Shown: piece after piece, positions 25,261 to 45,387 of the stretch
Position numbering within the stretch: the stretch's first letter is position 1
Layout of the letters: every line of letters begins with the position of its first letter
From: Deroplatys truncata
Lineage: Eukaryota > Arthropoda > Insecta > Mantodea > Mantidae
DNA length: 64,000 nt
NCBI GenBank assembly: GCA_030765065.1
Contig: CM060978.1
Coordinates: 112,635,692-112,699,691 of the forward strand
Direction of reading: 5' to 3'
Notes under the pieces: generated by a model
Seen by the model: the letters and a program-made list of their open reading frames with translations, nothing else
What the model was told of the DNA's origin: nothing
The model's database searches: none
Position numbers and translations under genes: made by a program

Positions 25261-25975
25261 TGTGTGTGTGTCTGTGAACAGCATAACTCAAAAACGAACA
25301 GTCAGATAAGCACCAAACTTGGTATTTAGGTTCAGTATCTTCCAGAGATGCGACACGAAGGTTTTCAAGAAAATCCCCCCACCCCAGACTACCCTTTACA
25401 TGGAAGATTTTTCGAAAACTTTAATTTTCTCAAAAATGGCTCTAACGATTTTGATGAAAATATCATATGTTTAAGATAATGTCATGAGAAATGAAATGTA
25501 TATCTCGAATTTTCTGGGAATGTCTCCAAAAGTATTCTTCATTGTGAACGACTTTTGCATAACTGGTAAACCATAAGAGATAGACAAAATTTTACTACAC
25601 AAAAAATGTAGATCGCGTTAAAATACACAACTAATGTCATATACATTTCTTTTGTTGAGTGAACCGTTTTCGAGATATTGCTTGTTATTTCCTTAAATTT
25701 TCCAATACTTATACTTTTCTCAAATGCGTTATTCATTTTTTTTATGTCCTGGACATGCAAAGAGAATGGAATGCGCCACATAGCAACCAGCGTTAAAATA
25801 TTTGACTATCGCTTAAAAGCTACCATATTTCCCTTGCATCTACAAGAAAATTACCAATAAGATTGACATCTCGATATCTCGATTAACATGAAGCATATGG
25901 AGAATAGGCGTTTGTAAAATTAGATTGTACAAGAGTAGAGAAAGTCATGTGAGTGTAACACATCAGATTTTTTTA
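25099..25975 (+). mobile_element. Family A element, copy 3
   Basis: A full-length copy with an interrupted (GT)n tract at 25228-25275 and a type B tail (ATGTCCTGGACATGCAAAGA). The end reads GAGTAGAGAAAGTCATGTGA. Confidence 0.85.
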
Positions 25976-26077
25976 TTTAGGGAGTCTCAAAACGTGTATT
26001 TCCGGTGAAATGTCGGTATCGAGGTTTTGGGTGGCATGCAATACCTTTTCTACCTACTATGTACGCGGTAGACAATA
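25976..26077 (-). mobile_element. Family A head fragment, inverted
   Basis: Starting at GGGAGTCTCAAAACGTGTAT, this is the reverse complement of the first ~100 bases of family A, with several changes. It makes an inverted arrangement with copy 3. Confidence 0.7.
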
Positions 26078-27296: not shown

Positions 27297-27302
27297 CTCC
27301 TG
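27297..27302. repeat. Left copy of 6-bp target-site duplication CTCCTG
   Basis: CTCCTG directly precedes AGTAGTAATAGTCCCGG. The same six bases directly follow the right terminus at 45382-45387. Confidence 0.65.
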
Positions 27303-27313
27303 AGTAGTAATAG

Positions 27314-27460
27314 TCCCGGATGAGCCAATTGTTTTAACGATAATCCTGCCGCTAGGGGCGCTAGTGTCGCTAGTGTCGCTGCGTGCGACGGCGGCGGCGG
27401 TAAGTTTGAAAAGCGCCCTGAGCGTTAGGATTATCGTTAAATCGGTTGGCTCATCCGGGA
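27314..27460. repeat. Terminal stem-loop, left end
   Basis: TCCCGGATGAGCCAATTGTT at 27314 pairs with AAATCGGTTGGCTCATCCGGGA ending at 27460, continuing through ACGATAATCCT/AGGATTATCGT. The stem is about 34 bp with three mismatches or so. The loop of ~79 bp contains GCTAGTGTC repeats and GGCGGCGGCGG. It resembles a MITE captured at, or forming, the tip of each arm. Confidence 0.75.
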
Positions 27461-27478
27461 CGAGTTGAAAGAATTGAG

Positions 27479-27519
27479 GAAGTGACGTGTAGTGTTTTGA
27501 TTGGTTCGTTAATTTGGGG
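27479..27519 (-). promoter_or_regulatory. ER-stress-type element, outermost, left arm
   Basis: Mirror of 45165-45205. On the minus strand it reads CCAAT, nine bases, CCACG, followed by TCAC. Confidence 0.5.
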
Positions 27520-27628
27520 TGGAAGATGAAGGAAGGAAGATGGAAGAGTATGGAGGTCGCGTGATGGAGAGGAGCTGGGTAGCGAGGTGTTGTCTGTGCG
27601 GAGGTCGGTACTGAAAGAGGGGAAAAGA

Positions 27629-27769
27629 TGGGTAGCGAGGGATAAAAAGTGTAACAGAAAGTGACGTGTGAAGTTGTGATTGGTGGGAATAAGAAGTGAT
27701 TTTATTGGTGGGAAGGAGCAAATGAGAGTTGTTGATTGGTAAGAATAAGAGGGATTATGATTGGTGGAA
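27629..27769 (-). promoter_or_regulatory. CCAAT-cluster promoter module P1, left arm
   Basis: Mirror of the right-arm module at 44915-45055: four CCAAT boxes at 25-31 bp spacing, a CCAAT-N9-ACACGTCA element and a TTTTTAT box. All are oriented outward on the minus strand. Confidence 0.45.
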
Positions 27770-28129
27770 AGAAAAAGGTGTGGGAGTGGGGTATGTTGGA
27801 GGTGATGGGAAAGGTGAGTTTTGCTAGCAGCAAGATTTGCAAAAGCCTGTCTTGAACTGATCAGCAATTTTTGAACGTCGGATGGTAGTTTTCTTGAGTG
27901 GATAGAGAGATGGGGGCGATATGAGATGCGGTGGCGAAAATGGGAACTAGACAAGGTTGTTGAGACAAGAGGTTTAAGGACGAGGAAATTTGGAGGTTAG
28001 TGGTGAACACGGCGGTCGCAAGAGGTGGGGGTAAGGAGACGCAGTGGTGAGAATGGGAACTAAAAGAAGATGGGGGTAGCAAGAGTTTTAGAAGAGTAGA
28101 TTTTGAGGTTAAAATAGTGGGAACTAAAA

Positions 28130-28342
28130 ATGGCGGAGGGTCTGCGACAAGGAGATGCGGTGAGAACTAAACAAGATGGCGGTCGCAAGAGGAGGGTAAG
28201 GAGATTTGAGGTTACAGTACGAAAACACGAAAGGATATATTCCTACGCCAAGCAGGTCCGAAAAATAATTATGCGTGTGGTACTTACCTGTTACCGGTGT
28301 GGATGCGTCACCAAACGCGCGGCACGCGAGGCGGAAAAATAA
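28130..28342 (+). CDS. Hypothetical 70-aa basic ORF (left arm, copy 1)
   Basis: An ATG frame starting in AAAATGGCGGAGGG encodes a very basic protein with GGRKRRVRRFEV and a CYRCGC motif. Tandem and mirror copies exist at 29196-29408, 43276-43488 and 44342-44554. This copy differs from its mirror at six of 70 residues, while the other pair is identical. It runs antisense to the outward promoter modules. Coding function is doubtful. Confidence 0.15.
   Translation: MAEGLRQGDAVRTKQDGGRKRRVRRFEVTVRKHERIYSYAKQVRKIIMRVVLTCYRCGCVTKRAAREAEK
28287..28287 (-). promoter_or_regulatory. Consensus 5' splice site, left arm unit 2
   Basis: Minus-strand sequence AACAG/GTAAGTACC, a perfect CAG/GTAAGT donor. 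It is the mirror of 44397, where the exon side reads CCAG. Confidence 0.4.
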
Positions 28343-28381
28343 AAGCAAACTGTTTTTGAAAATGCTTAACCAGCTTTAAGA

Positions 28382-28525
28382 TCAACCAACATCACTACGC
28401 ACTGATATACCTAGGTTTTTAAAGCGGTACAGACACCCTTTGCAGAGGCGTAATTTAACTATACCAAAAACCTGGTACTGGACCATCGTGATGGTCGCTA
28501 GCGTACGTAGGAGCAGGGTTCTCAT
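28382..28525 (-). CDS. Hypothetical 47-aa ORF (left arm, copy 2)
   Basis: Mirror of 44159-44302. The same ATG-initiated frame ends in a CKGC-containing, Arg-rich tail and lies upstream of the splice donor of its unit. Confidence 0.2.
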   Translation of the reverse strand: MRTLLLRTLATITMVQYQVFGIVKLRLCKGCLYRFKNLGISVRSDVG

Positions 28526-28698
28526 AGCCGGTCGAAAGCGGTCAAAAACGTGTACGACGTAGGTGTTCACCGTAGCTGCTGCCGAGTGAACGATCGAGGT
28601 GTGAATAAACAAGATCTGTTCTCGCCGGCAATTTGGTTCGGAGATGTGAGCAGCGGCGAGGTGGTGTCTGTGCGGAGGTCGGGACTGAAAGAGGGAAA

Positions 28699-28839
28699 AG
28701 ATGGGGAGCGAGGGATAAAAAGTGTAACAGAAAGTGACGTGTGAAGTTGTGATTGGTGGGAATAAGAAGTGATTTTATTGGTGGAAAGGAGCAAATGAAA
28801 GTTGTTGATTGGTAAGAATAAGAGAGGTTATGATTGGTG
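28699..28839 (-). promoter_or_regulatory. CCAAT-cluster promoter module P2, left arm
   Basis: Mirror of 43845-43985, with four CCAAT boxes, a TGACGTG motif (GTGACGTG on the plus strand) and a TTTTTAT box. Confidence 0.45.
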
Positions 28840-29195
28840 GAAAGAAAAAGGAGTGGGGTATGTTGGAGGTGATGGGAAAGGTAAGTTTTGCTAGCAACAA
28901 GATTTGCAAAAGCCTGTCGTGAACTGATCAGCAATTTTTTGAACGTTGGATGGTAGTTTTCTTGAGTGGATAGAGAGATGGGGCGATATGAGATGCGGTG
29001 GCGAAAATGGGAACTAAACAAGGTGGTTGAGACAAGAGGTTTAAGGACGAGGAAATTTGGAGGTTAGTGGTGAACATGGCGGTCGCAAGAGGTGGGGGTA
29101 AGGAGACGCGGTGGTGAGAATGGGAACTAAAAGAAGATGGCGGTAGCAAGAGGTTAGAAGAGTAGATTTTGAGGTTAAAATAGCGGGAACTAAAA

Positions 29196-29408
29196 ATGGC
29201 GGAGGGTCTGCGACAAGGAGATGCGGTGAGAACTAAACAAGATGGCGGACGCAAGAGGTGGGTAAGGAGGTTTGAGGTTACAGTACCAAAACACGAAAGG
29301 ATATATTCCTACGCCAAGCAGGTCCGAAAAATAATTATGCGTGTGTTACTTACCTGTTACCGGTGTGGATGCGTCACCAAAAGCGCGGCACGCGACCCGG
29401 AAAAATAA
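29196..29408 (+). CDS. Hypothetical 70-aa basic ORF (left arm, copy 2)
   Basis: Tandem copy of 28130-28342 and identical to its mirror 43276-43488. The same CYRCGC motif is present. Coding status is unsupported beyond the open frame. Confidence 0.15.
   Translation: MAEGLRQGDAVRTKQDGGRKRWVRRFEVTVPKHERIYSYAKQVRKIIMRVLLTCYRCGCVTKSAARDPEK
29353..29353 (-). promoter_or_regulatory. Consensus 5' splice site, left arm unit 3
   Basis: Minus-strand AACAG/GTAAGTAAC, mirror of 43331. Confidence 0.4.
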
Positions 29409-29447
29409 AAGCAAACTGTTTTTGAAAATGCTTAACCAGCTTTAAGA

Positions 29448-29591
29448 TCAACCAACATCACTACGCACTGATATACCTAGGTTTTTAAAGCGGTACAGAC
29501 ACCCTTTGCAGAGGCGTAATTTAACTATACCAAAAACCTGGTACTGGACCATCGTGATGGTCGCTAGCGTACGTAGGAGCAGGGTTCTCAT
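29448..29591 (-). CDS. Hypothetical 47-aa ORF (left arm, copy 3)
   Basis: Mirror of 43093-43236, identical protein frame. Confidence 0.2.
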   Translation of the reverse strand: MRTLLLRTLATITMVQYQVFGIVKLRLCKGCLYRFKNLGISVRSDVG

Positions 29592-29833
29592 AGCCGGTCG
29601 AAAGCGGTCAAAAACGTGTACGACGTAGGTGTTGGCAGTAGCTGCTGCCGAGGCAACCGTCGAGGTGCGAATGAACGAGATCTGTTGTTGCAGGCAATCT
29701 GGTTGAGAGATGAGAGGCGCGGTGGTAAAAATGTGAACTAAATAAGATGGCGGAGGCACGAAGTTGAGGTTAAGGAGCGGCGAGGTGTTGACTGTGCGGC
29801 GGTTGGGGTCTGAAAGAGGGGGAAAGATGGCGA

Positions 29834-29964
29834 ACGAGGGATAAAAAGTATAACAGAAAGTGACGTGTGAAGTTGTCATTGGTGGGAATAAGAAGTGATG
29901 TTATTGGTGGAAAGGAACAAATGAAAGTTGCTGATTGGCGAGAATAAGAGAGATTATGATTGGT
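29834..29964 (-). promoter_or_regulatory. CCAAT-cluster promoter module P3, left arm
   Basis: Mirror of 42720-42850, with four CCAAT boxes and the GTGACGTG word. Confidence 0.45.
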
Positions 29965-30079
29965 GGAAAGAAAAAAAGGTGTGGGAGTGGGGTATGTTGG
30001 AGGTGATGGAAAAGGCAAGTTTTGCTACCAACAACATTTGCAAAAGCCTATCCAGAACTCATCAGCAATTTTAAATAAC

Positions 30080-30832
30080 TAGTGTTTCGGGGGTTTTCTC
30101 TGGTTGGTAGACGAATGCAAGCTGTTTCTACCATACTTATATTATTCGTCTTTTTCCTTTTTTTTTTTTTAAAATGACTAGTTTTTCTTTTTTTTTTTTT
30201 TTGGGGGGAGTTTTCTGCGGATGGTAAACAAATGCAAGCTCTTTCTGCTTTTTCATAGGTTTTCCCTGGTTGGTAGGCGTTTTCTGTACTGGTTGACGAA
30301 GGCGTTTCTAATTTTGGAGGTTTTCTCAGGTTTTTAGCGGTTGTCCCTGCCCGGTAGGCAAATGATGAAGTTTTACCTTGTCGGCGCACGGATACTAGGC
30401 ACGTACTGGCGCGCACACACACACACACACACAGAGAGACAGACAGACACACAGACAGGCACACACACACGGACATGTTTCCAAAAATGCTTTTTTTTTT
30501 TTTTTTTTTTTTGATTCAGGAGGTCTCAAAACGTGTATTTCCGGTGAAATCTCGGTATCGAATTTTTGGGCGGAATGCAATACTTCCCCTACTTACTATA
30601 CGTAGTAGAGAAAGTAAAAAAGTATTGAAAAATTTAAGGAAATAACAAGCAATACCTCAAAAGTGTACTATCTTGTTTTCACGGGTTTTCCAGATCGGTA
30701 AGCCTTAGAATACTCTTAGAGCTTTTTTCAGGTTTTTTAGCGGTTGTCCCTGGCCGGTAGGCAAATGATAAAGTTTTTCTATAACGTCGTCGTTTTGGCT
30801 TGTGGCGTGCGGATACTAGGCACGTACTCGCG

Positions 30833-30871
<39 letters not shown>

Positions 30872-30900
30872 ATAGTAGCGTATAAAAAAAAACTGATGTG
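30080..30900. repeat. Low-complexity and simple-repeat zone, left arm
   Basis: Contains T/A homopolymers (30162-30202, 30491-30512), (CA)n at 30418-30432 and 30841-30866, a family A head on the minus strand (30478-30625), and two related copies of a GGTTTTCCCTGGTTGGTAGG-like word set. The homopolymer lengths differ from the mirror arm. Confidence 0.6.
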
Positions 30901-33755
30901 TTACACTCACATGACTTTCTCTACTCTTGTACAATCTAATTGGTAGCTTTTAAGCGATAGTCAAATATTTTAACGCTGGTTGCTATGTGGCGAATTCCAT
31001 TCTGTTTGCATGTTCAGGACATAAAAAAAATGAATAAACGAATTTGAGAAAAAGTATAAGTATTGGAAAATTTAAGGAAATAACAAGCAATATCTCGAAA
31101 ACGGTTCACTCAACAAAAGAAACGTATATGACATAAGTTGTGTATTTTAACGCGATCTACATTTTTTGTGTAGTAAAATTTTGTCTATCTCTTATGGTTT
31201 ACCAGTTATGCAAAAAAGTCGTTCACAATGAAGAATATTTTTGGAGACATTCCCAGAAAATTCGAGATATACATTTTATTTGACATGACAATATCTTAAA
31301 CATATGATGTTTTAATCAAAATCGTTAGAGCCGTTTTTGAGAAAATTAAAATTTTCGAAAAATGTTCCATGTAAAGGGTAGTCTGGGGTGGGGGGATTTT
31401 CTTGAAAACCTTCGTGTCGCATCTCTGGAAGATACTGAACCTAAATACCAAGTTTGGTGTTTATCCGACTGTTCGTTTTTGAGTTATGCTGTTCACAGAC
31501 ACACAGACACACAGACACACAGACAGACACACACACGGACATGTTTCCAAAAATGCTTTTTTTTTTGGATTCAGAGATTCTCAAAACATGTATTTCCAGT
31601 GAAATCTCGGTAACGAATTTTTGGGTGGAATGCAATACTTCCCCTACTTACTATTCGTAGTAGAGAAAGTAAAAATGAATAACGCATTTGAGAAAAAGTA
31701 TAAGTATTGGAAAATTTAAGGAAATAACAAGCAATATCTCGAAAATGGTTCACTCAACTAAAAAAAAATGTATATGACATAAATTGTGTATTTTAACGCG
31801 ATCTACATTTTTTGTGTAGTAAAATTTTGGCTATCTCTTATGGTTTACCAGTTATGCATACTGAACCTAAATACCAAGTTTGGTGTTTATCCGACTGTTC
31901 GTTTTTGAGTTACGCTGTTCACAGACACACAGACGCACAGACAGACAGACACACAGACACACAGACACACAGACAGACACACACACGGACATGTTTCCAA
32001 AAATGCTTTTTTTTTCTGGATTCAGTGATTCTCAAAACATGTATTTCCAGTGAAATCTCGGTATCGAATTTTTGGGTGGAATGCAATACTTCCCCTACTT
32101 ACTATACGTAGTAGAGAAAGTAAAAATGAATAACGCATTTGAGAAAAAGTATAAGAATTGGAAAATTTAAAGGAAATAACAAGCAATATCTCGAAAAACG
32201 GTTCACTCAACAAAATAAATGTATATGGCATAAGTTGTGTATTTTAACGCGATCTACATTTTTTGTGTAGCAAACTTTTGTCTATCTCTTACGGTTTATC
32301 AGTTATGAAAAAGTCGTTCACAATGAAGAATTCTTTTGGAGACATTCCCAGAAAATTCGAGATATACATTTCATTTCTCTCGACATTATCTTAAATATAT
32401 GATATTTTCATCAAAATCGTTAGAGCCATTTTTTAATACAAAGAGAACGGGATTTCACAAGTGAAACAGTACTGTGATAACGATACCACTGAAACAAAAA
32501 AAAAAATCTGATGTGTAACACTCACATGACTTTCTCAACTCTTGTACAAAGTATTTTTACAAACGCTTATTCCCCATCTAGTTCATGTTAATCGAGATAA
32601 ACATTTGCAAAATCTATTTTATTGCTAATTTTCTTGTATAAAAAAAAAAATCTGATGTGTAACACTCACATGACGTTCTCTACTCTTGTACAAAGTATTT
32701 TTACAAACGCTTATGCTCCATCTAGTTCATGTTAATCGAGATAAACATTTGCAAACTCTATTTTATTGCTAATTTTCTTGTAGATGTAGGGGAAAATATA
32801 TTTACAAGGGGAATATAGAAAAACAGTAGCCTTTAAGCACATACATATCTCTTAATAGCTGGTTGCTATGTGCAGCACCATTGTTTTTGCCACAGATTAA
32901 TACTGTTTGCATATCAAAGACAAAAAAAAAAATGAATAACGAAGTCCCATTTGAGAAAATAAATATTGGAAAATTAACAAACAATATCTCGAAAACGGTT
33001 CACTCAACAACAAAAATGTATATTACATAAGATGTGTATTTTAACGCGATCTACATTTTTTGTGTAGTAAAATTTTGTCTATCTCTTACGGTTTTTGAGT
33101 TATGAAAAAGACGTTCACAATGAAGAATACTTTTGGAGACATTCCCAGAAAATTCGAGATATACATTTCATTTCTCACGACATTATATTAAACATACGAT
33201 ATTTTTCATCAAAATCGTTAGAGCCATTTTTTTTAATACAAAGAGAACGGGATTTCACAAGTGAAACAGTACTGTGATAACGATACCAACAAAACTAATT
33301 ATTATTCACCCACTGAAACACATAAAAAAAAATCTAATGTGTAACACTCACATGACTTTTCTCATCTCTTGTACAAAGTATTTTTATAAACGCTTATTCC
33401 CCATCTAGTTCATGATAATCGAGATAAACATTTGCAAACTCTATTTTATTGCTAATTTTCTTGTAGACGTAGGGAAAATATATTTACAAGGGGAATATAG
33501 AAAAACAGTAGCCTTTAAGCACATACATATCTCTTAATAGCTGGTTGCTATGTGCAGTACCATTCTTTTTGCCACATATTAATACTCTTTGCATATCAAA
33601 GACAAAAAAAAAATGAATAACGAATTCCCATTTGAGAAAATAACTATTGGAAAATTTAAGTAAATAACAAGCAATATCTCGAAAACGGTTCACTCAACAA
33701 TAAAGATGTATATGACATAAGTTGTGTATTTTAACGCGATCTACATACTTTCGTA
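30884..33755 (-). mobile_element. Scrambled family A copies and tail modules, left arm
   Basis: At least one long copy (30884-31674), a second deleted head-proximal copy ending near 32126, and several tandem tail modules (starts near 32505, 32645, 33325) lie in the same minus orientation. AACACATCAGAT and AGTAGAGAAAGT words mark the junctions. The arrangement is mirrored at 38930-41800. Confidence 0.75.
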
Positions 33756-33759
33756 CTCA

Positions 33760-33760
33760 C
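33760..33760 (-). promoter_or_regulatory. 5' splice-site-like sequence, left arm inner
   Basis: Minus-strand TTATAG/GTGAGTACG, mirror of 38927. Confidence 0.35.
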
Positions 33761-34207
33761 CTATAAGATATAGAGGGTAGAGGTCGTACGAACGTAGCAC
33801 TTTGAGAATTTATATTCAACAGTTGGTGTTACTCCTTAGAAAGGAAGTATCTGCTGATTTTTATTTAATTCTTTACATTTTACATAACACGTATGCACTG
33901 GCACAACACAAAAGCACTACACACGATACTCAGTTTTAATATTTGCACTAATAACATCAGGAATAACTGAAGTCTGCAAACAGTCATTTCCCATGTGCAG
34001 CCTTACGTACAGAGAACGTGTGTGGCTGATCTATGTGTAAAAAGAGCCTGAGAGCGGATGTACGTCAGCGGTAAAATCTTTTAAATGCATTTTTATTGGC
34101 GATGGTAGAAATCGTGCAGTGGTGGATCGTGAAAATTCATATAAATGGATGTATCACCTCATAATAAGCCTCTATATACCAAGAATATTGAGTTTTTAAA
34201 AAGTCAG
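33761..34207. other. Inner single-copy segment, left arm
   Basis: Mirror of 38480-38926. No ORF is recognised. It contains TGACGTAC-type and TTTTTACAC words. Confidence 0.4.
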
Positions 34208-35768
34208 CAACTGTACCTGTGTTTCTATACGTGAACGTCAGATGGCAGCTTCGATACGTGTCCACGGAGACCTTAGTGCTAGGCAACTGTACCTCTGTTT
34301 CTATACGTGAACGGCAGATTGCAGCTTCGATACGTGTCCACGGAGACCTTAGTGCTAGGCAACTGTACCTCTGTTTCTATACGTGAACGGCAGATTGCAG
34401 CTTCGATACGTGTCCACGGAGACCTTAGTGCTAGGCAACTGCACCTCTGTTTCTATACGTGAACGGCAGATTGCAGCTTCGATACGTGTCCACGGAGACC
34501 TTAGCGCTAGGCAACTGCACCTCTGTTTCTATACGTGAACGGCAGATTGCAGCTTCGATACGTGTCCACGGAGACCTTAGTGCTAGGCAACTGTACCTCT
34601 GTTTCTATACGTGAACGGCAGATTGCAGCTTCGATACGTGTCCACGGAGACCTTAGTGCTAGGCAACTGTACCTCTGTTTCTATACGTGAACGGCAGATT
34701 GCAGCTTCGATACGTGTCCACGGAGACCTTAGTGCTAGGCAACTGCACCTCTGTTTCTATACGTGAACGGCAGATTGCAGCTTCGATACGTATCCACGGA
34801 GACCTTAGTGCTAGGCAACTGCACCTCTGTTTCTATACGTGAACGGCAGATTGCAGCTTCAATACGTGTCCACGGAGACCTTAGTGCTAGGCAACTGTAC
34901 CTCTGTTTCTATACGTGAACGGGAGATTGCAGCTTCGATACGTGTCCACGGAGACCTTAGTGCTAGGCAACTGCACCTCTGTTTCTATACGTGAACGTCA
35001 GATTGCAGCTTCGATACGTGTCCACGGAGACCTTAGTGCTAGGCAACTGCACCTCTGTTTCTATACGTGAACGGCAGATTGCAGCTTCGATACGTATCCA
35101 CGGGGACCTTAGTGCTAGGGAACTGCACCTCTGTTTGTATACGTGAACGGCAGATTGCAGCTTCAATACGTGTCCACGGAGACCTTAGTGCTAGGCAGCT
35201 GTACCTCTGTTTCTATACGTGAACGGCAGATTGCAGCTTCGATACGTGTCCACGGAGATCTTAGTGCTAGGCAGCTATACCTGTTTCTATACGTCAACGG
35301 CAGATTGCAGCTTCGATACGTGTTCACGGAGACCTTAGTGCTAGGCAACTGTACCTGTGTTTCTATACGTGTCCACGGAGACCTTAGTGCTAGACAACTG
35401 CACCTCTGTTTCTATACGTGAACGGCAGATTGCAGCTTCAATACGTGTCCACGGAGACCTTAGTGCTAGTGCTAGGCAACTATACCTCTGTTTCTATACG
35501 TGAACGGCAGATTGCAGGTTCGATACGTGTCCACGGAGATCTTAGTGCTAGGCAACTATACCTGTTTCTATACGTGAACGGCAGATTGCAGCTTCGATAC
35601 GTGTCCACGGAGACCTTAGTGCTAGGCAACTGTACCTGTGTTTCTATACGTGAACGTCAGATGGCAGCTTCGATACGTGTCCACGGAGACCTTAGTGTTA
35701 GGCAACTGTACCTCTGTTTCTATACGTGAACGGCAGATTGCAGCTTCGATACGTGTCCACGGAGACCT
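34208..35768. repeat. 76-bp tandem array, about 20 units, left arm
   Basis: The word TCCACGGAGACCTTAG recurs at 34261, 34337, 34413, 34489 and onward every 76 bp to about 35757. Three or four units near 35280-35480 carry small deletions or insertions. Each unit contains TATACGTGAACG and GATACGTGTCC, giving two TACGTG cores per unit. The period is not divisible by three, so the open frames here are chance. Confidence 0.9.
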
Positions 35769-36329
35769 TTCGCTTCAGGTGACAAAATAACACTAGGCAC
35801 TTGTGTGCCGTGGTGTAAGCCGCAATCACGGTATTGGTAGCGTGGATCTCCTTGGGGCTCTCCTCGGAGTTACCTCAACACCACGTACATGACCTGGTTC
35901 GTCACGGGTACGCAGGTCTGCACTACCACTTCCTCGGCGTTGAGCAGGCCCAGGAGGCGATCGTACCGGTACACCAGCTAGCACGTGGACATGTTATCGC
36001 GCTGTGGTGTTGCGTGTGCGAGGTATGGAAACTCAAGGACGCAAAACATGCACGACCGAGGGTTAAAAAGCAGAACAAGTAGTGACGTGGAGCGTTGTGA
36101 TTGGTGTAAATAAGACGATCTCTGATAGGTGGACAAATTGAAATAACGTGATGTGATAGGCGAAAATAAAATCAAAGGTGATTGGATGAAAAATGACGAG
36201 AAGGAATTAGCGGTGAATTTGTGAACTAAGATGGCGAAGATTTTTTTTTTTAAAAAAAAGGATAATATAAGTACGGCAACTGTAACGGTTTACGGCAAAC
36301 GCGCGCCGCGCAATGCGTCACGCCGGGCA
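35769..36329. other. GC-richer inner arm, left
   Basis: Mirror of 36357-36919. Holds the complement of the 35-codon GC3-rich frame (35873-35977, minus), and an ATTGG/GTGACGTGGAG promoter-like block near 36085-36105. Confidence 0.5.
36062..36172 (-). promoter_or_regulatory. Innermost ER-stress-type/CCAAT module, left arm
   Basis: Mirror of 36515-36625. A perfect CCAAT-N9-CCACG lies on the minus strand at 36086-36104. Confidence 0.5.
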
Positions 36330-36356
36330 TCTTGCTCAATATGATTTTTGTTTTAT
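36330..36356. other. Palindrome spacer (loop), ~27 bp
   Basis: TCTTGCTCAATATGATTTTT and the following GTTTTAT separate the two arms. The innermost pairing is GCCGGGCA with TGCCCGGGC (one inserted G), then GTCACGCC/GGCGTGAC at 36317-36324 and 36363-36370. Confidence 0.85.
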
Positions 36357-36514
36357 TGCCCGGGCGTGACGCATTGCGCGGCGCGCGTTTGCCGTAAACC
36401 GTTACAGTTGCCGTACTTATATTATCCTTTTTTTTAAAAAAAAAAATCTTCGCCATCTTAGTTCACAAATTCACCGCTAATTCCTTCTCGTCATTTTTCA
36501 TCCAATCACCTTTG

Positions 36515-36625
36515 ATTTTATTTTCGCCTATCACATCACGTTATTTCAATTTGTCCACCTATCAGAGATCGTCTTATTTACACCAATCACAACGCTCCAC
36601 GTCACTACTTGTTCTGCTTTTTAAC
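36515..36625 (+). promoter_or_regulatory. Innermost ER-stress-type/CCAAT module, right arm
   Basis: A perfect CCAAT-N9-CCACG lies at 36583-36601, followed by TCAC, so that TGACGTG is complete on the other strand. A CCAATCACC lies near 36501 and CCTATCAGA/CCTATCACA near-CCAAT words lie between. A CTTTTTAACCCTCGG box follows, comparable with the CTTTTTATCCCTCG boxes of the tandem modules. Confidence 0.5.
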
Positions 36626-36709
36626 CCTCGGTCGTGCATGTTTTGCGTCCTTGAGTTTCCATACCTCGCACACGCAACACCACAGCGCGATAACATGTCC
36701 ACGTGCTAG

Positions 36710-36814
36710 CTGGTGTACCGGTACGATCGCCTCCTGGGCCTGCTCAACGCCGAGGAAGTGGTAGTGCAGACCTGCGTACCCGTGACGAACCAGGTCATGT
36801 ACGTGGTGTTGAGG
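36710..36814 (+). CDS. 35-codon GC3-rich frame, possible captured exon fragment
   Basis: Between an in-frame TAG and TAA the codons are strikingly G/C-ending (CTG GTG TAC CGG TAC, then CTC CTG GGC CTG CTC AAC). They encode RYDRLLGLLNAEEVVVQTCV and further hydrophobic residues. This composition contrasts with the AT-rich surroundings. There is no ATG at the start and no family is recognised. The mirror copy is on the minus strand of the left arm. Confidence 0.2.
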
Positions 36815-36919
36815 TAACTCCGAGGAGAGCCCCAAGGAGATCCACGCTACCAATACCGTGATTGCGGCTTACACCACGGCACACAAGTGCCTAGTGTTAT
36901 TTTGTCACCTGAAGCGAAA

Positions 36920-38480
36920 GGTCTCCGTGGACACGTATCGAAGCTGCAATCTGCCGTTCACGTATAGAAACAGAGGTACAGTTGCCTAACACTAAGGTCT
37001 CCGTGGACACGTATCGAAGCTGCCATCTGACGTTCACGTATAGAAACACAGGTACAGTTGCCTAGCACTAAGGTCTCCGTGGACACGTATCGAAGCTGCA
37101 ATCTGCCGTTCACGTATAGAAACAGGTATAGTTGCCTAGCACTAAGATCTCCGTGGACACGTATCGAACCTGCAATCTGCCGTTCACGTATAGAAACAGA
37201 GGTATAGTTGCCTAGCACTAGCACTAAGGTCTCCGTGGACACGTATTGAAGCTGCAATCTGCCGTTCACGTATAGAAACAGAGGTGCAGTTGTCTAGCAC
37301 TAAGGTCTCCGTGGACACGTATAGAAACACAGGTACAGTTGCCTAGCACTAAGGTCTCCGTGAACACGTATCGAAGCTGCAATCTGCCGTTGACGTATAG
37401 AAACAGGTATAGCTGCCTAGCACTAAGATCTCCGTGGACACGTATCGAAGCTGCAATCTGCCGTTCACGTATAGAAACAGAGGTACAGCTGCCTAGCACT
37501 AAGGTCTCCGTGGACACGTATTGAAGCTGCAATCTGCCGTTCACGTATACAAACAGAGGTGCAGTTCCCTAGCACTAAGGTCCCCGTGGATACGTATCGA
37601 AGCTGCAATCTGCCGTTCACGTATAGAAACAGATGTGCAGTTGCCTAGCACTAAGGTCTCCGTGCACACGTATCGAAGCTGCAATCTGACGTTCACGTAT
37701 AGAAACAGAGGTGCAGTTGCCTAGCACTAAGGTCTCCGTGGACACGTATCGAAGCTGCAATCTCCCGTTCACGTATAGAAACAGAGGTACAGTTGCCTAG
37801 CACTAAGGTCTCCGTGGACACGTATTGAAGCTGCAATCTGCCGTTTACGTATAGAAACAGAGGTGCAGTTGCCTAGCACTAAGGTCTCCGTGGATACGTA
37901 TCGAAGCTGCAATCTGCCGTTCACGTATAGAAACAGAGGTGCAGTTGCCTAGCACTAAGGTCTCCGTGGACACGTATCGAAGCTGCAATCTGCCGTTCAC
38001 GTATAGAAACAGAGGTACAGTTGCCTAGCACTAAGGTCTCCGTGGACACGTATCGAAGCTGCAATCTGCCGTTCACGTATAGAAACAGAGGTACAGTTGC
38101 CTAGCACTAAGGTCTCCGTGGACACGTATCGAAGCTGCAATCTGCCGTTCACGTATAGAAACAGAGGTGCAGTTGCCTAGCGCTAAGGTCTCCGTGGACA
38201 CGTATCGAAGCTGCAATCTGCCGTTCACGTATAGAAACAGAGGTGCAGTTGCCTAGCACTAAGGTCTCCGTGGACACGTATCGAAGCTGCAATCTGCCGT
38301 TCACGTATAGAAACAGAGGTACAGTTGCCTAGCACTAAGGTCTCCGTGGACACGTATCGAAGCTGCAATCTGCCGTTCACGTATAGAAACAGAGGTACAG
38401 TTGCCTAGCACTAAGGTCTCCGTGGACACGTATCGAAGCTGCCATCTGACGTTCACGTATAGAAACACAGGTACAGTTGC
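36920..38480. repeat. 76-bp tandem array, about 20 units, right arm
   Basis: Inverted mirror of 34208-35768, with the same irregular units near 37200-37400. Several single-base differences between arms are visible, for example AACAGATGTG near 37628 where the left arm implies AACAGAGGTG. Confidence 0.9.
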
Positions 38481-38926
38481 TGACTTTTTAAAAACTCAAT
38501 ATTCTTGGTATATAGAGGCTTATTATGAGGTGATACATCCATTTATATGAATTTTCACGATCCACCACTGCACGATTTCTACCATCGCCAATAAAAATGC
38601 ATTTAAAAGATTTTACCGCTGACGTACATCCGCTCTCAGGCTCTTTTTACACATAGATCAGCCACACACGTTCTCTGTACGTAAGGCTGCACATGGGAAA
38701 TGACTGTTTGCAGACTTCAGTTATTCCTGATGTTATTAGTGCAAATATTAAAACTGAGTATCGTGTGTAGTGCTTTTGTGTTGTGCCAGTGCATACGTGT
38801 TATGTAAAATGTAAAGAATTAAATAAAAATCAGCAGATACTTCCTTTCTAAGGAGTAACACCAACTGTTGAATATAAATTCTCAAAGTGCTACGTTCGTA
38901 CGACCTCTACCCTCTATATCTTATAG
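38481..38926. other. Inner single-copy segment, right arm
   Basis: Mirror of 33761-34207. Read outward it has GCTGACGTAC, CTCTTTTTACAC and then about 300 bp to the splice-site-like word. This could be a promoter and first exon, but there is no ORF to support it. Confidence 0.35.
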
Positions 38927-38927
38927 G
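38927..38927 (+). promoter_or_regulatory. 5' splice-site-like sequence, right arm inner
   Basis: TTATAG/GTGAGTACG fits the donor consensus AG/GTRAGT and points outward. Confidence 0.35.
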
Positions 38928-38929
38928 TG

Positions 38930-41813
38930 AGTACGAAAGTATGTAGATCGCGTTAAAATACACAACTTATGTCATATACATCTTTATTGTTGAGTGAACC
39001 GTTTTCGAGATATTGCTTGTTATTTACTTAAATTTTCCAATAGTTATTTTCTCAAATGGGAATTCGTTATTCATTTTTTTTTTGTCTTTGATATGCAAAG
39101 AGTATTAATATGTGGCAAAAAGAATGGTACTGCACATAGCAACCAGCTATTAAGAGATATGTATGTGCTTAAAGGCTACTGTTTTTCTATATTCCCCTTG
39201 TAAATATATTTTCCCTACGTCTACAAGAAAATTAGCAATAAAATAGAGTTTGCAAATGTTTATCTCGATTATCATGAACTAGATGGGGAATAAGCGTTTA
39301 TAAAAATACTTTGTACAAGAGATGAGAAAAGTCATGTGAGTGTTACACATTAGATTTTTTTTTATGTGTTTCAGTGGGTGAATAATAATTAGTTTTGTTG
39401 GTATCGTTATCACAGTACTGTTTCACTTGTGAAATCCCGTTCTCTTTGTATTAAAAAAAATGGCTCTAACGATTTTGATGAAAAATATCGTATGTTTAAT
39501 ATAATGTCGTGAGAAATGAAATGTATATCTCGAATTTTCTGGGAATGTCTCCAAAAGTATTCTTCATTGTGAACGTCTTTTTCATAACTCAAAAACCGTA
39601 AGAGATAGACAAAATTTTACTACACAAAAAATGTAGATCGCGTTAAAATACACATCTTATGTAATATACATTTTTGTTGTTGAGTGAACCGTTTTCGAGA
39701 TATTGTTTGTTAATTTTCCAATATTTATTTTCTCAAATGGGACTTCGTTATTCATTTTTTTTTGTCTTTGATATGCAAACAGTATTAATCTGTGGCAAAA
39801 ACAATGGTGCTGCACATAGCAACCAGCTATTAAGAGATATGTATGTGCTTAAAGGCTACTGTTTTTCTATATTCCCCTTGTAAATATATTTTCCCCTACA
39901 TCTACAAGAAAATTAGCAATAAAATAGAGTTTGCAAATGTTTATCTCGATTAACATGAACTAGATGGAGCATAAGCGTTTGTAAAAATACTTTGTACAAG
40001 AGTAGAGAACGTCATGTGAGTGTTACACATCAGATTTTTTTTTTATACAAGAAAATTAGCAATAAAATAGATTTTGCAAATGTTTATCTCGATTAACATG
40101 AACTAGATGGGGAATAAGCGTTTGTAAAAATACTTTGTACAAGAGTTGAGAAAGTCATGTGAGTGTTACACATCAGATTTTTTTTTTTTTTGTTTCAGTG
40201 GTATCGTTATCACAGTACTGTTTCACTTGTGAAATCCCGTTCTCTTTGTATTAAAAAATGGCTCTAACGATTTTGATGAAAATATCATATATTTAAGATA
40301 ATGTCGAGAGAAATGAAATGTATATCTCGAATTTTCTGGGAATGTCTCCAAAAGAATTCTTCATTGTGAACGACTTTTTCATAACTGATAAACCGTAAGA
40401 GATAGACAAAAGTTTGCTACACAAAAAATGTAGATCGCGTTAAAATACACAACTTATGCCATATACATTTATTTTGTTGAGTGAACCGTTTTTCGAGATA
40501 TTGCTTGTTATTTCCTTTAAATTTTCCAATTCTTATACTTTTTCTCAAATGCGTTATTCATTTTTACTTTCTCTACTACGTATAGTAAGTAGGGGAAGTA
40601 TTGCATTCCACCCAAAAATTCGATACCGAGATTTCACTGGAAATACATGTTTTGAGAATCACTGAATCCAGAAAAAAAAAGCATTTTTGGAAACATGTCC
40701 GTGTGTGTGTCTGTCTGTGTGTCTGTGTGTCTGTGTCTGTCTGTCTGTGCGTCTGTGTGTCTGTGAACAGCGTAACTCAAAAACGAACAGTCGGATAAAC
40801 ACCAAACTTGGTATTTAGGTTCAGTATGCATAACTGGTAAACCATAAGAGATAGCCAAAATTTTACTACACAAAAAATGTAGATCGCGTTAAAATACACA
40901 ATTTATGTCATATACATTTTTTTTTAGTTGAGTGAACCATTTTCGAGATATTGCTTGTTATTTCCTTAAATTTTCCAATACTTATACTTTTTCTCAAATG
41001 CGTTATTCATTTTTACTTTCTCTACTACGTATAGTAAGTAGGGGAAGTATTGCATTCCACCCAAAAATTCGTTACCGAGATTTCACTGGAAATACATGTT
41101 TTGAGAATCTCTGAATCCAAAAAAAAAAGCATTTTTGGAAACATGTCCGTGTGTGTGTCTGTCTGTGTGTCTGTGTGTCTGTGTGTCTGTGAACAGCATA
41201 ACTCAAAAACGAACAGTCGGATAAACACCAAACTTGGTATTTAGGTTCAGTATCTTCCAGAGATGCGACACGAAGGTTTTCAAGAAAATCCCCCCACCCC
41301 AGACTACCCTTTACATGGAACATTTTTCGAAAATTTTAATTTTCTCAAAAACGGCTCTAACGATTTTGATTAAAACATCATATGTTTAAGATATTGTCAT
41401 GTCAAATAAAATGTATATCTCGAATTTTCTGGGAATGTCTCCAAAAATATTCTTCATTGTGAACGACTTTTTTGCATAACTGGTAAACCATAAGAGATAG
41501 ACAAAATTTTACTACACAAAAAATGTAGATCGCGTTAAAATACACAACTTATGTCATATACGTTTCTTTTGTTGAGTGAACCGTTTTCGAGATATTGCTT
41601 GTTATTTCCTTAAATTTTCCAATACTTATACTTTTTCTCAAATTCGTTTATTCATTTTTTTTATGTCCTGAACATGCAAACAGAATGGAATTCGCCACAT
41701 AGCAACCAGCGTTAAAATATTTGACTATCGCTTAAAAGCTACCAATTAGATTGTACAAGAGTAGAGAAAGTCATGTGAGTGTAACACATCAGTTTTTTTT
41801 TATACGCTACTAT

Positions 41814-41852
<39 letters not shown>

Positions 41853-42210
41853 CGCGAGTACGTGCCTAGTATCCGCACGCCACAAGCCAAAACGACGACG
41901 TTATAGAAAAACTTTATCATTTGCCTACCGGCCAGGGACAACCGCTAAAAAACCTGAAAAAAGCTCTAAGAGTATTCTAACGCTTACCGATCTGGAAAAC
42001 CCGTGAAAACAAGATAGTACACTTTTGAGGTATTGCTTGTTATTTCCTTAAATTTTTCAATACTTTTTTACTTTCTCTACTACGTATAGTAAGTAGGGGA
42101 AGTATTGCATTCCGCCCAAAAATTCGATACCGAGATTTCACCGGAAATACACGTTTTGAGACATCCTGAATCAAAAAAAAAAAAAAAAAAGCATTTTTGG
42201 AAACATGTCC
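38930..42210 (+). mobile_element. Scrambled family A copies and tail modules, right arm
   Basis: Mirror of 30478-33755. Heads with ACTTTCTCTACTACGTATAG occur at about 40565, 41015 and 42070. Tail modules with GTCATGTGAGTGTTACACAT occur at about 39330, 40010 and 40155. GT/CTGT microsatellites sit at the usual internal position (40700, 41145, 42210). Confidence 0.75.
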
Positions 42211-42660
42211 GTGTGTGTGTGCCTGTCTGTGTGTCTGTCTGTCTCTCTGTGTGTGTGTGTGTGTGTGTGCGCGCCAGTACGTGCCTAGTATCCGTGCGCC
42301 GACAAGGTAAAACTTCATCATTTGCCTACCGGGCAGGGACAACCGCTAAAAACCTGAGAAAACCTCCAAAATTAGAAACGCCTTCGTCAACCAGTACAGA
42401 AAACGCCTACCAACCAGGGAAAACCTATGAAAAAGCAGAAAGAGCTTGCATTTGTTTACCATCCGCAGAAAACTCCCCCCCCCAAAAAAAAAAAAAGAAA
42501 AACTAGTCATTTTAAAAAAAAAAAAAGGAAAAAGACGAATAATATAAGTATGGTAGAAACAGCTTGCATTCGTCTACCAACCAGAGAAAACCCCCGAAAC
42601 ACTAGTTATTTAAAATTGCTGATGAGTTCTGGATAGGCTTTTGCAAATGTTGTTGGTAGC
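42211..42660. repeat. Low-complexity zone, right arm
   Basis: (GT)n, A-runs at 42482-42500 and 42517-42528, and two GCCTACC-GG-CAGGGA-type words. It mirrors 30080-30470 with different homopolymer lengths. Confidence 0.55.
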
Positions 42661-42719
42661 AAAACTTGCCTTTTCCATCACCTCCAACATACCCCACTCC
42701 CACACCTTTTTTTCTTTCC

Positions 42720-42850
42720 ACCAATCATAATCTCTCTTATTCTCGCCAATCAGCAACTTTCATTTGTTCCTTTCCACCAATAACATCACTTCTTATTCCC
42801 ACCAATGACAACTTCACACGTCACTTTCTGTTATACTTTTTATCCCTCGT
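42720..42850 (+). promoter_or_regulatory. CCAAT-cluster promoter module P3, right arm
   Basis: CCAATCATAATC, CCAATCAGCAAC, CCAATAACATC and CCAATGACAAC boxes follow one another at 25-31 bp. The last is followed after nine bases by ACACGTCAC, which differs from the ER-stress element CCAAT-N9-CCACG by one base. ACTTTTTATCCCTCG is a TATA-like box. Confidence 0.5.
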
Positions 42851-43092
42851 TCGCCATCTTTCCCCCTCTTTCAGACCCCAACCGCCGCACAGTCAACACC
42901 TCGCCGCTCCTTAACCTCAACTTCGTGCCTCCGCCATCTTATTTAGTTCACATTTTTACCACCGCGCCTCTCATCTCTCAACCAGATTGCCTGCAACAAC
43001 AGATCTCGTTCATTCGCACCTCGACGGTTGCCTCGGTAGCAGCTACTGCCAACACCTACGTCGTACACGTTTTTGACCGCTTTCGACCGGCT

Positions 43093-43236
43093 ATGAGAAC
43101 CCTGCTCCTACGTACGCTAGCGACCATCACGATGGTCCAGTACCAGGTTTTTGGTATAGTTAAATTACGCCTCTGCAAAGGGTGTCTGTACCGCTTTAAA
43201 AACCTAGGTATATCAGTGCGTAGTGATGTTGGTTGA
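43093..43236 (+). CDS. Hypothetical 47-aa ORF (right arm, unit 3)
   Basis: ATGAGAACCCTGCTCC opens a 47-codon frame with RTLLLRTLATITMVQYQVFG and then CKGCLYRF, basic overall and with a C-x-x-C pair. It lies between promoter module P3 and the splice donor at 43331. The frame is open upstream to an ATG at 42805 (143 codons), but that ATG lies inside a CCAAT box. The tandem copy at 44159 is identical. There is no homology that I recognise. Confidence 0.2.
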   Translation: MRTLLLRTLATITMVQYQVFGIVKLRLCKGCLYRFKNLGISVRSDVG

Positions 43237-43275
43237 TCTTAAAGCTGGTTAAGCATTTTCAAAAACAGTTTGCTT

Positions 43276-43488
43276 TTATTTTTCCGGGTCGCGTGCCGCG
43301 CTTTTGGTGACGCATCCACACCGGTAACAGGTAAGTAACACACGCATAATTATTTTTCGGACCTGCTTGGCGTAGGAATATATCCTTTCGTGTTTTGGTA
43401 CTGTAACCTCAAACCTCCTTACCCACCTCTTGCGTCCGCCATCTTGTTTAGTTCTCACCGCATCTCCTTGTCGCAGACCCTCCGCCAT
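43276..43488 (-). CDS. Hypothetical 70-aa basic ORF (right arm, copy 2)
   Basis: Mirror of 29196-29408 and identical to it. It overlaps the splice donor region in antisense. Confidence 0.15.
   Translation of the reverse strand: MAEGLRQGDAVRTKQDGGRKRWVRRFEVTVPKHERIYSYAKQVRKIIMRVLLTCYRCGCVTKSAARDPEK
43331..43331 (+). promoter_or_regulatory. Consensus 5' splice site, right arm unit 3
   Basis: GGTAACAG/GTAAGTAAC is a perfect CAG/GTAAGT donor 94 bases after the 47-aa ORF stop. No acceptor was identified inside the arm. Confidence 0.45.
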
Positions 43489-43844
43489 TTTTAGTTCCCG
43501 CTATTTTAACCTCAAAATCTACTCTTCTAACCTCTTGCTACCGCCATCTTCTTTTAGTTCCCATTCTCACCACCGCGTCTCCTTACCCCCACCTCTTGCG
43601 ACCGCCATGTTCACCACTAACCTCCAAATTTCCTCGTCCTTAAACCTCTTGTCTCAACCACCTTGTTTAGTTCCCATTTTCGCCACCGCATCTCATATCG
43701 CCCCATCTCTCTATCCACTCAAGAAAACTACCATCCAACGTTCAAAAAATTGCTGATCAGTTCACGACAGGCTTTTGCAAATCTTGTTGCTAGCAAAACT
43801 TACCTTTCCCATCACCTCCAACATACCCCACTCCTTTTTCTTTC

Positions 43845-43985
43845 CACCAATCATAACCTCTCTTATTCTTACCAATCAACAACTTTCATTTGCTCCTTTC
43901 CACCAATAAAATCACTTCTTATTCCCACCAATCACAACTTCACACGTCACTTTCTGTTACACTTTTTATCCCTCGCTCCCCATCT
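43845..43985 (+). promoter_or_regulatory. CCAAT-cluster promoter module P2, right arm
   Basis: Four CCAAT boxes, then CCAATCACAACTTCACACGT and CTTTTTATCCCTCG. The sequence is near-identical to P1. Confidence 0.5.
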
Positions 43986-44158
43986 TTTCCCTCTTTCAGT
44001 CCCGACCTCCGCACAGACAACACCTCGCCGCTACTCACATCTCCGAACCAAATTGCCGGCGAGAACAGATCTTGTTTATTCACACCTCGATCGTTCACTC
44101 GGCAGCAGCTACGGTGAACACCTACGTCGTACACGTTTTTGACCGCTTTCGACCGGCT

Positions 44159-44302
44159 ATGAGAACCCTGCTCCTACGTACGCTAGCGACCATCACGATG
44201 GTCCAGTACCAGGTTTTTGGTATAGTTAAATTACGCCTCTGCAAAGGGTGTCTGTACCGCTTTAAAAACCTAGGTATATCAGTGCGTAGTGATGTTGGTT
44301 GA
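44159..44302 (+). CDS. Hypothetical 47-aa ORF (right arm, unit 2)
   Basis: Tandem copy of the 43093 frame, identical in protein. It is preceded by a different leader and followed by the donor at 44397. Confidence 0.2.
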   Translation: MRTLLLRTLATITMVQYQVFGIVKLRLCKGCLYRFKNLGISVRSDVG

Positions 44303-44341
44303 TCTTAAAGCTGGTTAAGCATTTTCAAAAACAGTTTGCTT

Positions 44342-44554
44342 TTATTTTTTCGCGTCGCGTGCCGCGCTTTTGGTGACGCATCCACACCGGTACCAGGTAA
44401 GTACCACACGCATAATTATTTTTCGGACCTGCTTGGCGTAGGAATATATCCTTTCGTGTTTTGGTACTGTAACCTCAAATCTCCTTACCCTCCTCTTGCG
44501 ACCGCCATCTTGTTTAGTTCCCACCGCATCTCCTTGTCGCAGACCCTCCGCCAT
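44342..44554 (-). CDS. Hypothetical 70-aa basic ORF (right arm, copy 1)
   Basis: Mirror of 28130-28342 with six residue differences (R12G, R31P, C54W, R63S, E67D and E69K relative to the left copy). Three of the right-arm residues match the tandem neighbour, so the left copy is the more diverged one. Confidence 0.15.
   Translation of the reverse strand: MAEGLRQGDAVGTKQDGGRKRRVRRFEVTVPKHERIYSYAKQVRKIIMRVVLTWYRCGCVTKSAARDAKK
44397..44397 (+). promoter_or_regulatory. Consensus 5' splice site, right arm unit 2
   Basis: GGTACCAG/GTAAGTACC, pointing outward. Confidence 0.45.
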
Positions 44555-44914
44555 TTTTAGTTCCCACTATTTTAACCTCAAAATCTACTCTTCTAAAACT
44601 CTTGCTACCGCCATCTTCTTTTAGTTCCCATTCTCACCACTGCGTCTCCTTACCCCCACCTCTTGCGACCGCCGTGTTCACCACTAACCTCCAAATTTCC
44701 TCGTCCTTAAACCTCTTGTCTCAACAACCTTGTCTAGTTCCCATTTTCGCCACCGCATCTCATATCGCCCCCATCTCTCTATCCACTCAAGAAAACTACC
44801 ATCCGACGTTCAAAAATTGCTGATCAGTTCAAGACAGGCTTTTGCAAATCTTGCTGCTAGCAAAACTCACCTTTCCCATCACCTCCAACATACCCCACTC
44901 CCACACCTTTTTCT

Positions 44915-45055
44915 TTCCACCAATCATAATCCCTCTTATTCTTACCAATCAACAACTCTCATTTGCTCCTTTCCACCAATAAAATCACTTCTTATTCCCA
45001 CCAATCACAACTTCACACGTCACTTTCTGTTACACTTTTTATCCCTCGCTACCCA
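44915..45055 (+). promoter_or_regulatory. CCAAT-cluster promoter module P1, right arm
   Basis: CCAAT boxes at 44920, 44945, 44976 and 45001. The last has ACACG exactly nine bases downstream (45015-45019), within ACACGTCAC. CACTTTTTATCCCTCG follows about 20 bp later. CCAAT is the NF-Y site, and TGACGTG on the opposite strand is the ATF6/XBP1-type bZIP site. Confidence 0.5.
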
Positions 45056-45164
45056 TCTTTTCCCCTCTTTCAGTACCGACCTCCGCACAGACAACACCTC
45101 GCCACCCAGCTCCTCTCCATCACGCGACCTCCATACTCTTCCATCTTCCTTCCTTCATCTTCCA

Positions 45165-45205
45165 CCCCAAATTAACGAACCAATCAAAACACTCCACGTC
45201 ACTTC
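45165..45205 (+). promoter_or_regulatory. Perfect ER-stress-type element, outermost, right arm
   Basis: CCAAT at 45180-45184 and CCACG at 45194-45198 are separated by exactly nine bases, the ERSE arrangement. TCAC follows, completing TGACGTG on the other strand. Confidence 0.5.
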
Positions 45206-45223
45206 CTCAATTCTTTCAACTCG

Positions 45224-45371
45224 TCCCGGATGAGCCAACCGATTTAACGATAATCCTAACGCTCAGGGCGCTTTTCAAACTTACCGCCGCCGCCGTCGCA
45301 CGCAGCGACACTAGCGACACTAGCGCCCCTAGCGGCAGGATTATCGTTAAAACAATTGGCTCATCCGGGAC
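45224..45371. repeat. Terminal stem-loop, right end
   Basis: Mirror of 27314-27460: TCCCGGATGAGCCAACCGAT pairs with CAATTGGCTCATCCGGGA across a ~79-bp GC-rich loop. Confidence 0.75.
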
Positions 45372-45381
45372 TATTACTACT

Positions 45382-45387
45382 CTCCTG
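45382..45387. repeat. Right copy of 6-bp target-site duplication CTCCTG
   Basis: Directly follows the terminal CCGGGACTATTACTACT. Confidence 0.65.

Follow-up and report, generated by a model that had tools for sequence, protein, structure and literature searches.

A gene-less 18-kb palindrome in the mantis Deroplatys truncata as a probable snap-back derivative of a Polinton/Maverick element

The palindrome and its arms

The stretch of DNA analyzed here (the window, 64,000 nucleotides) is part of contig C4 in the genome assembly of the mantis Deroplatys truncata (4.29 Gb, 818 contigs) and contains a near-perfect palindrome of 18 kb, which we interpret as a derivative of the virus-like Polinton/Maverick transposons. 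Coordinates given without a contig are window positions. The original prediction, made from the letters of the window alone, had described arms of about 9.03 kb around a spacer of about 27 bp, with the hexamer CTCCTG repeated directly at both exact ends, and the analysis confirmed both points. Self-BLAST showed that 27302-45382 matches its own reverse complement with 99.5% identity across 18,099 columns. The outermost base on each side of this alignment is a chance G/C complement and lies outside the element, which is composed as follows.

27303-45381, no strand assigned: whole palindromic element, 18,079 bp (self-BLAST, sequence and arm alignment)
27297-27302, forward strand: left target-site duplication CTCCTG, directly abutting the element
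45382-45387, forward strand: right target-site duplication CTCCTG, directly abutting the element
27303-36329, forward strand: left arm, 9,027 bp (sequence and arm alignment)
36330-36356, forward strand: central loop, 27 nt, flanked by GGGCA and TGCCC
36357-45381, reverse strand: right arm, 9,025 bp (sequence and arm alignment)
27303-27308, forward strand: end motif (AGT)2, with its mirror (ACT)2 at 45376-45381
27303-27461, forward strand: terminal segment of 159 bp, equal to the entire terminal inverted repeat (TIR) of a coding partner, with its mirror at 45223-45381
27313-27461, forward strand: imperfect hairpin of about 150 bp within the terminal segment
27303-27889, forward strand: segment 95.7% identical to the polymerase-side end of a coding Polinton, with its mirror at 44795-45381
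27582-29716, forward strand: two tandem units of about 1.07 kb, with a partial third unit at 29773-30072 and the mirror at 42968-45103
30422-33746, forward strand: partial copies of a dispersed repeat of the genome, also found at 1052-1954, 14571-15443, 25093-25979 and 52081-52979
34207-35769, forward strand: minisatellite of about 20 units of 76 bp, with its mirror at 36918-38480
35770-36329, forward strand: GC-rich central part of the arm, including a diverged copy (70%) of the terminal unit at 35987-36133

From the outside inwards, each arm thus consists of the (AGT)2 motif, the hairpin, the tandem units, the dispersed repeats, the minisatellite and the GC-rich centre. Alignment of the left with the right arm, the centre left out, revealed seven short indels, confined to homopolymers and microsatellites, in addition to about 20 substitutions. 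The dispersed repeat, in the arms and at the four other places listed, is about 0.9 kb long and rich in CA/GT microsatellites.

CTCCTG is not a rare hexamer in the window (13 occurrences observed, 16.5 expected by chance), and its weight rests on the placement of two of the 13 exactly at both ends of the element. The terminal sequence AGTAGTAATAGTCCCGG, with up to three mismatches allowed, was found within the window at the two element ends only (0.07 occurrences expected). For the window copy taken alone, a 4-bp TCCT duplication is also possible, in which case the element would gain one base at either end; in eight other full copies the duplication is 6 bp and not 4 bp.

The coding capacity of the left arm was investigated by a Pfam scan of 82 of its 105 stop-free segments (at least 45 amino acids), the 23 omitted segments being minisatellite. 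The best E-value was 0.004 and no Polinton family was matched, so that pPolB, integrase, ATPase, protease and capsid were all missing from the segments scanned, in agreement with the original prediction, in which no Polinton gene was seen. Since no Polinton genes were detected in the arms, we class the element as a non-autonomous derivative and not as a full Polinton. A PDB sequence search with two central open reading frames (ORFs) returned nothing under E 0.2, and neither the exact terminus nor the minisatellite pattern had a match in viral contigs.

Copies in the genome and their common centre

The exact 29-bp terminus occurs 1,034 + 1,022 = 2,056 times in the genome, coding relatives included, while the reversed control gave no match. 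Pairing was analyzed for 100 listed terminus places of the 2,056, all of them on contig C1, which resolved into 42 convergent pairs and 16 singles. The median length of the pairs is 18.04 kb; 34 of the 42 fall within 17.0-19.81 kb, seven are shorter and one is longer (27.6 kb). Full copies were fetched for eight convergent pairs beyond the window's own, chosen from the best 40 of 2,365 candidates, a sample that is skewed toward well-preserved copies.

All eight are flanked by perfect 6-bp duplications, each of them different (ACCGAG, GAGGTC, CTCGGC, GAGGCT, CAGCTC, GCTGTG, ACTGAC and CACGTG), which makes nine of nine with the window copy. A chance palindrome beside a chance duplication was rejected on this count. 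For three of the nine insertions paralogous empty sites were found, in that the flanks, when joined, could be aligned over the junction to dispersed-repeat copies located elsewhere: those of copy C3 match window 50849-50526, apart from a gap of 12 bp next to the insertion site, those of C13b match a stretch called L062, and those of C14 match window 15824-16006 (84%). The search for further insertions with 6-bp duplications that the original prediction had called for, together with the empty sites, thus supports its view of the palindrome as one inserted mobile unit. The nine duplications are 67% GC compared to 39% in the window, a possible integration preference. Two of the nine palindromes (C7:314039612 and C13:101402967) are inserted within other Polintons; one splits an ORF for an rve integrase (6.9e-9), and the other sits between a phospholipase-A2-like ORF and an ORF for a double-jelly-roll capsid protein.

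The centre of the palindrome is common to many copies. Loop and stem together (37 bp) have 285 + 289 = 574 exact copies in the genome, with none for the control. Six of the eight fetched full copies carry the loop (five exactly, C14 with one change), in either orientation and between stretches of arm sequence; C7 and C3 have a deletion adjoining it on one side. The exact loop is present in 19 of the 42 C1 pairs. In 11 of these 19, with lengths of 17.1-18.6 kb, it lies no more than 30 bp from the midpoint, and in the other eight it is 70-609 bp off. The position of the loop near the midpoint despite varied lengths indicates that length changes occurred in both arms. One founding fold-back is the simplest reading of this shared centre.

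The arms were further compared in a tree of seven elements, namely the window copy and six others (without copies C1 and C8), using 6.6 kb from the two arms of each. In seven of seven cases the left arm of an element has its own right arm as sister (support 0.76-1.0), showing that the arms of one element are homogenised. Both arms shared 77 of the variants private to one element, and 272 were confined to a single arm; of the latter, 224 fall in the left arm of C13b, which is probably misaligned at its local duplication, and 48 elsewhere. For the variants common to several elements, both arms carry the variant in 26 of 38 element cases. A 2.5-kb version of the comparison gave 45 both-arm and 32 one-arm variants.

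Coding Polintons with the same terminus

The search of the termini for a coding core, named beforehand in the original prediction as a test, revealed a polymerase core behind the exact terminus. Centres were fetched for nine exact-terminus pairs that lack the exact loop, eight of 18.6-19.8 kb and one of 5.9 kb. Eight of the nine contain a coding core, seven of them 98.2-99.7% identical to that of the eighth, L065; no core was found at the fetched centre of the 5.9-kb element. This shorter element (L071, C1:233586282-233592204) has exact termini and arm-like sequence near its centre. The ORF at L065:7-1038 encodes a piece of a DNA polymerase of the protein-primed type (phrog_1907, 8.8e-23; PF03175 at 2.4e-4 with 20.6 bits, under the cut-off of 25.8). 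The core also encodes a P-loop ORF (CGKST), which we call ATPase-like only, its Pfam AAA matches all being under the cut-off.

One of the coding elements, C1:80867430-80887186 (19.8 kb), was read at both ends. It is flanked by the duplication GATGAC, and its TIR measures 159 bp. The direction of the polymerase ORF in its centre told which end is the polymerase side; all 581 bp fetched from that end align with 587 bases of the palindrome arm at 95.7% identity. At the other end the arm match is limited to the 159-bp TIR (96.2%); beyond it the alignment score is 20, compared to a maximum of 33 in 100 shuffles.

A related family behaves in the same way. The element C11:175070296-175089690 (19.4 kb) has the duplication AACGAT, a 178-bp TIR, a pPolB and an rve integrase (2.8e-15), and a second copy of this family, on C3, confirms its boundary. 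Its polymerase side matches the arm end over 510 bases with 72% identity (548 columns, E <1e-65), while on the other side the match lies only within the TIR. Outside the TIR, local scores are 310 on the polymerase side and 58 on the other, with a maximum of 103 in 60 shuffles. Four ORFs of this element matched no Pfam family at E 0.01. Because one exact-terminus element and one related family have arm-specific sequence on the polymerase side and not on the other, both ends of the palindrome correspond to the same parental end, the polymerase-side end of a Polinton.

A further, weak sign comes from an exact arm marker about 200 bp inside the terminus, which has 235 exact hits in the genome. In the coding element C1:14994612-15013589 it occurs on the polymerase side and not on the other, and one palindrome has it at both ends; neither end carries it in the remaining 40 of the 42 listed pairs, which include seven other coding elements.

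Other Polintons of this genome were examined with a PF03175 profile search, in which the best 76 of 11,882 first-look candidates were scored and many long open frames were obtained. Among the listed matches are several Polinton families with polymerase frames of 634-1,350 amino acids, an apparently heavy load for an animal. Different families start with AGTAGT followed by a subterminal hairpin. A C15 family (duplication GAGGAT, about 19.0 kb) matches only the first 77 bases of the arm (78%), at both ends. The tip of the palindrome and that of the L037 Polinton are not significantly alike when compared alone, 27 of 300 shuffles scoring as high; each has a subterminal hairpin that none of 300 shuffles reached. 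Hairpins of roughly 125-150 bp that begin 10-20 nt inward of the (AGT)2 end were seen in L037, L051, L052 and L055 as well as at window 27313-27461, and are perhaps part of the replication origin. Eight stretches upstream of pPolB contained no arm-like end; in one of them there is an AGTAGT terminus that belongs to another family. Among six stretches lying farther upstream, L051, L052 and L055 have the AGTAGT end and hairpin, L053 matches the arm end by BLAST, and in L054 and L056 nothing was found. Predicted termini of second copies were missed in three of five cases (L058, L060, L061) and, for the L037 family, in five of six.

Elsewhere in the window, remnants of mariner/Tc1-type transposases lie at 47086-47388, 50720-51166 and 57819-58349 (DUF4817; HTH_Tnp_Tc3_2, narrowly below the cut-off; and HTH_48).

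Origin of the palindrome and comparison with known systems

The features directly supported are Polinton termini, a 6-bp duplication, one end present twice, one common loop, no recognisable genes and many copies. We conclude, with a probability of roughly 0.84, that the element is a gene-less palindromic Polinton/Maverick derivative of snap-back origin that goes back to one founding fold-back and was integrated in trans. A snap-back derivative of a Polinton had been raised as a possibility in the original prediction, and it gains support from the exact terminus, which also bounds polymerase-coding elements of 18.6-19.8 kb. In the mechanism we propose, a strand would have started at the polymerase-side end during protein-primed strand-displacement synthesis and then stopped. 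Its 3' end would fold back on the short GGGCA/TGCCC stem across the loop and copy the strand to its own 5' end. The product would be linear and palindromic, with authentic replication origins in duplicate and two integrase-recognised ends, and this founder could have been replicated and integrated in trans by the proteins of coding Polintons, giving rise to several hundred copies. Each single strand could fold into a 9-kb hairpin, in which differences between the arms would be erased before integration; this proposed stage would explain the concerted arms.

Several observations weigh against this interpretation. The comparison of both ends rests on one exact-terminus coding element (n=1), and the integrase evidence comes from the C11 family and not from an exact-terminus element. 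Copy C8 has no loop. In C1:329599392-329613474 the loop is diverged and has arm sequence on one side only; this one-sided core could be a deletion or the state before the fold-back. The same element is about 3% diverged and has TIRs of about 6.8 kb around an asymmetric core in which the arm centre occurs once. Next to the loop, an asymmetry of one base (GCC-GGGCA versus TGCCCGGGC) is kept in the window and six loop-bearing copies, and therefore the stem is not re-copied at every cycle. Either gene conversion or a hairpin stage can account for the homogenised arms equally well.

The inner part of the arm adds to these points. An exact 38-bp marker at about 6.5 kb of the arm has 930 + 932 = 1,862 matches in the genome. 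The listed range takes in 40 C1 pairs, of which 18 contain the marker twice, three once and 19 not at all; the 18 pairs are 16.4-18.6 kb long, and 17 of them also have the exact loop. The marker had no exact match in any of the seven fetched coding elements inside that range, and the interior stretches L044 and L062 of C11 showed no arm match. As a continuous piece of a parent genome, the arm is matched over its first 587 bases, and the exact inner marker is absent from seven coding elements. Twelve of the 40 pairs have neither the inner marker nor a detected coding core, and the centre of one of these (5.9 kb) was examined. The negatives for the marker and for the C11 interior indicate that the arm does not just repeat the outermost 9 kb of a coding element now present. 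The outer arm is Polinton, while the inner arm, not found in the present coding elements, may stem from a variant since lost or have been acquired ahead of the fold-back.

A break in an integrated Polinton, followed by fold-back repair or template switching that duplicates the polymerase-side end and by later mobilisation in trans, would give the same product, and a 5-bp stem with a 27-nt loop suits any fold-back. Host dispersed repeats in the interior of the arm also suggest that the progenitor spent time in a chromosome. However, the palindrome stops on either side precisely at the Polinton terminus, with a single duplication around it, whereas a chromosomal inverted duplication would carry host flank past the terminus unless later integration had trimmed it, and we regard a chromosomal origin as unlikely. 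It is very improbable that a short TIR grew by gene conversion between the ends while the coding core was deleted, with no fold-back synthesis. The long TIRs and asymmetric core of C1:329599392 would fit such an expansion, as would the fact that arms do homogenise; the loop, identical in 574 exact copies and close to the midpoint in 11 of 19 pairs, does not, and the one-sided deletions beside the loop in C7 and C3 make a bigger deletion of this type the easier reading of the C1 copy.

The original prediction had held a giant foldback element of unknown type to be equally possible, but the search for terminus and coding core decides for a Polinton. An unrelated transposon of the IS3EU/GingerRoot, Ginger2 or Foldback/Galileo type, Polinton-like at its tips only, would share with Foldback and Galileo long and internally repetitive inverted arms, and IS3EU and GingerRoot also make 6-bp target-site duplications (PMC10045372). 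Nevertheless, the arm matches a polymerase-bearing element with 95.7% identity over 587 bases, so that this explanation, to which we give still less credence than to TIR expansion, holds only if the fetched element is chimeric. The termini argue against it too: here they are AGT..ACT, while IS3EU ends in TA..TA and GingerRoot in TA..TA or TG..CA (PMC10045372), and Ginger2 in TGTNR (PMC2836005). An identity with IS3EU or GingerRoot was rejected on these grounds. Least probable of all is an artefact of assembly or library, such as a hairpin read or a collapsed inverted repeat. Palindromes are common among assembly artefacts and the present one is known from the assembly alone; against this stand the duplications in nine of nine copies at independent sites on several contigs, the arm-specific substitutions and the empty sites.

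The case for protein-primed replication of Polintons derives chiefly from their genes and ends. A family of many copies that has one end twice, joined by a single fold-back, resembles the fossil of an aberrant replication product, and a linear replication stage thereby becomes directly testable. Beyond the snap-back origin itself, a wider picture can be offered tentatively and may well prove wrong: the Polinton would still move via a linear, protein-primed and possibly packaged DNA stage, accompanied by a hereditary palindromic satellite of near full-genome size, which with two origins would outreplicate or interfere with its helper, would have its arms reset in a hairpin stage, and would have been fixed at several hundred sites, some inside other Polintons. 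The palindrome family offers a size test for packaging. If the snap-back origin is correct, the products of such events can found a hereditary family that thrives, and an animal chromosome can harbour very long palindromes in large number.

By descent the element is a non-autonomous Polinton. It shares its end sequence with coding Polintons of the same genome, and its (AGT)2//(ACT)2 ends, 6-bp duplication and size near 17-20 kb are those of Polinton/Maverick elements (PMC8097293). According to that study, (AGT)2 is the most common end motif of vertebrate Mavericks, which measure 12.7-24.6 kb (mean 16.9), and the repeats at Maverick ends presumably assist the jumping-back step of protein priming. 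Unlike these elements, the palindrome has arms without a recognisable gene and one end present twice, and its arms of about 9 kb compare with TIRs of 46-1,447 bp in intact vertebrate Mavericks (PMC8097293). Among the papers listed by searches of an open-access library there was no precedent for palindromic or non-autonomous Polintons, which is weak evidence for a new architecture, most subscription papers, Repbase and preprints being outside its scope. Galileo is a member of the P-element superfamily with no relation to Polintons. Its target-site duplications are not known to be 6 bp long. Like miniature inverted-repeat transposable elements (MITEs) and internally deleted transposons, the palindrome is non-autonomous, has a high copy number and is presumably mobilised in trans. 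Internal deletion in MITEs keeps the left and the right end; the palindrome has the same end twice and is near full-element size.

Palindromic left-end genomes of adenovirus would be a closer parallel than those of adeno-associated virus (AAV). The nearest documented parallel we met are the snap-back defective genomes of AAV, which, as described in PMC8235507, are likewise self-complementary, contain one parental end twice and replicate with parental proteins. AAV is a parvovirus with hairpin ends and is not protein-primed, and its snap-back genomes are found in particles, whereas the palindromes described here are integrated and many-copied. If our interpretation is correct, virus-like transposons make snap-back defective genomes as AAV does.

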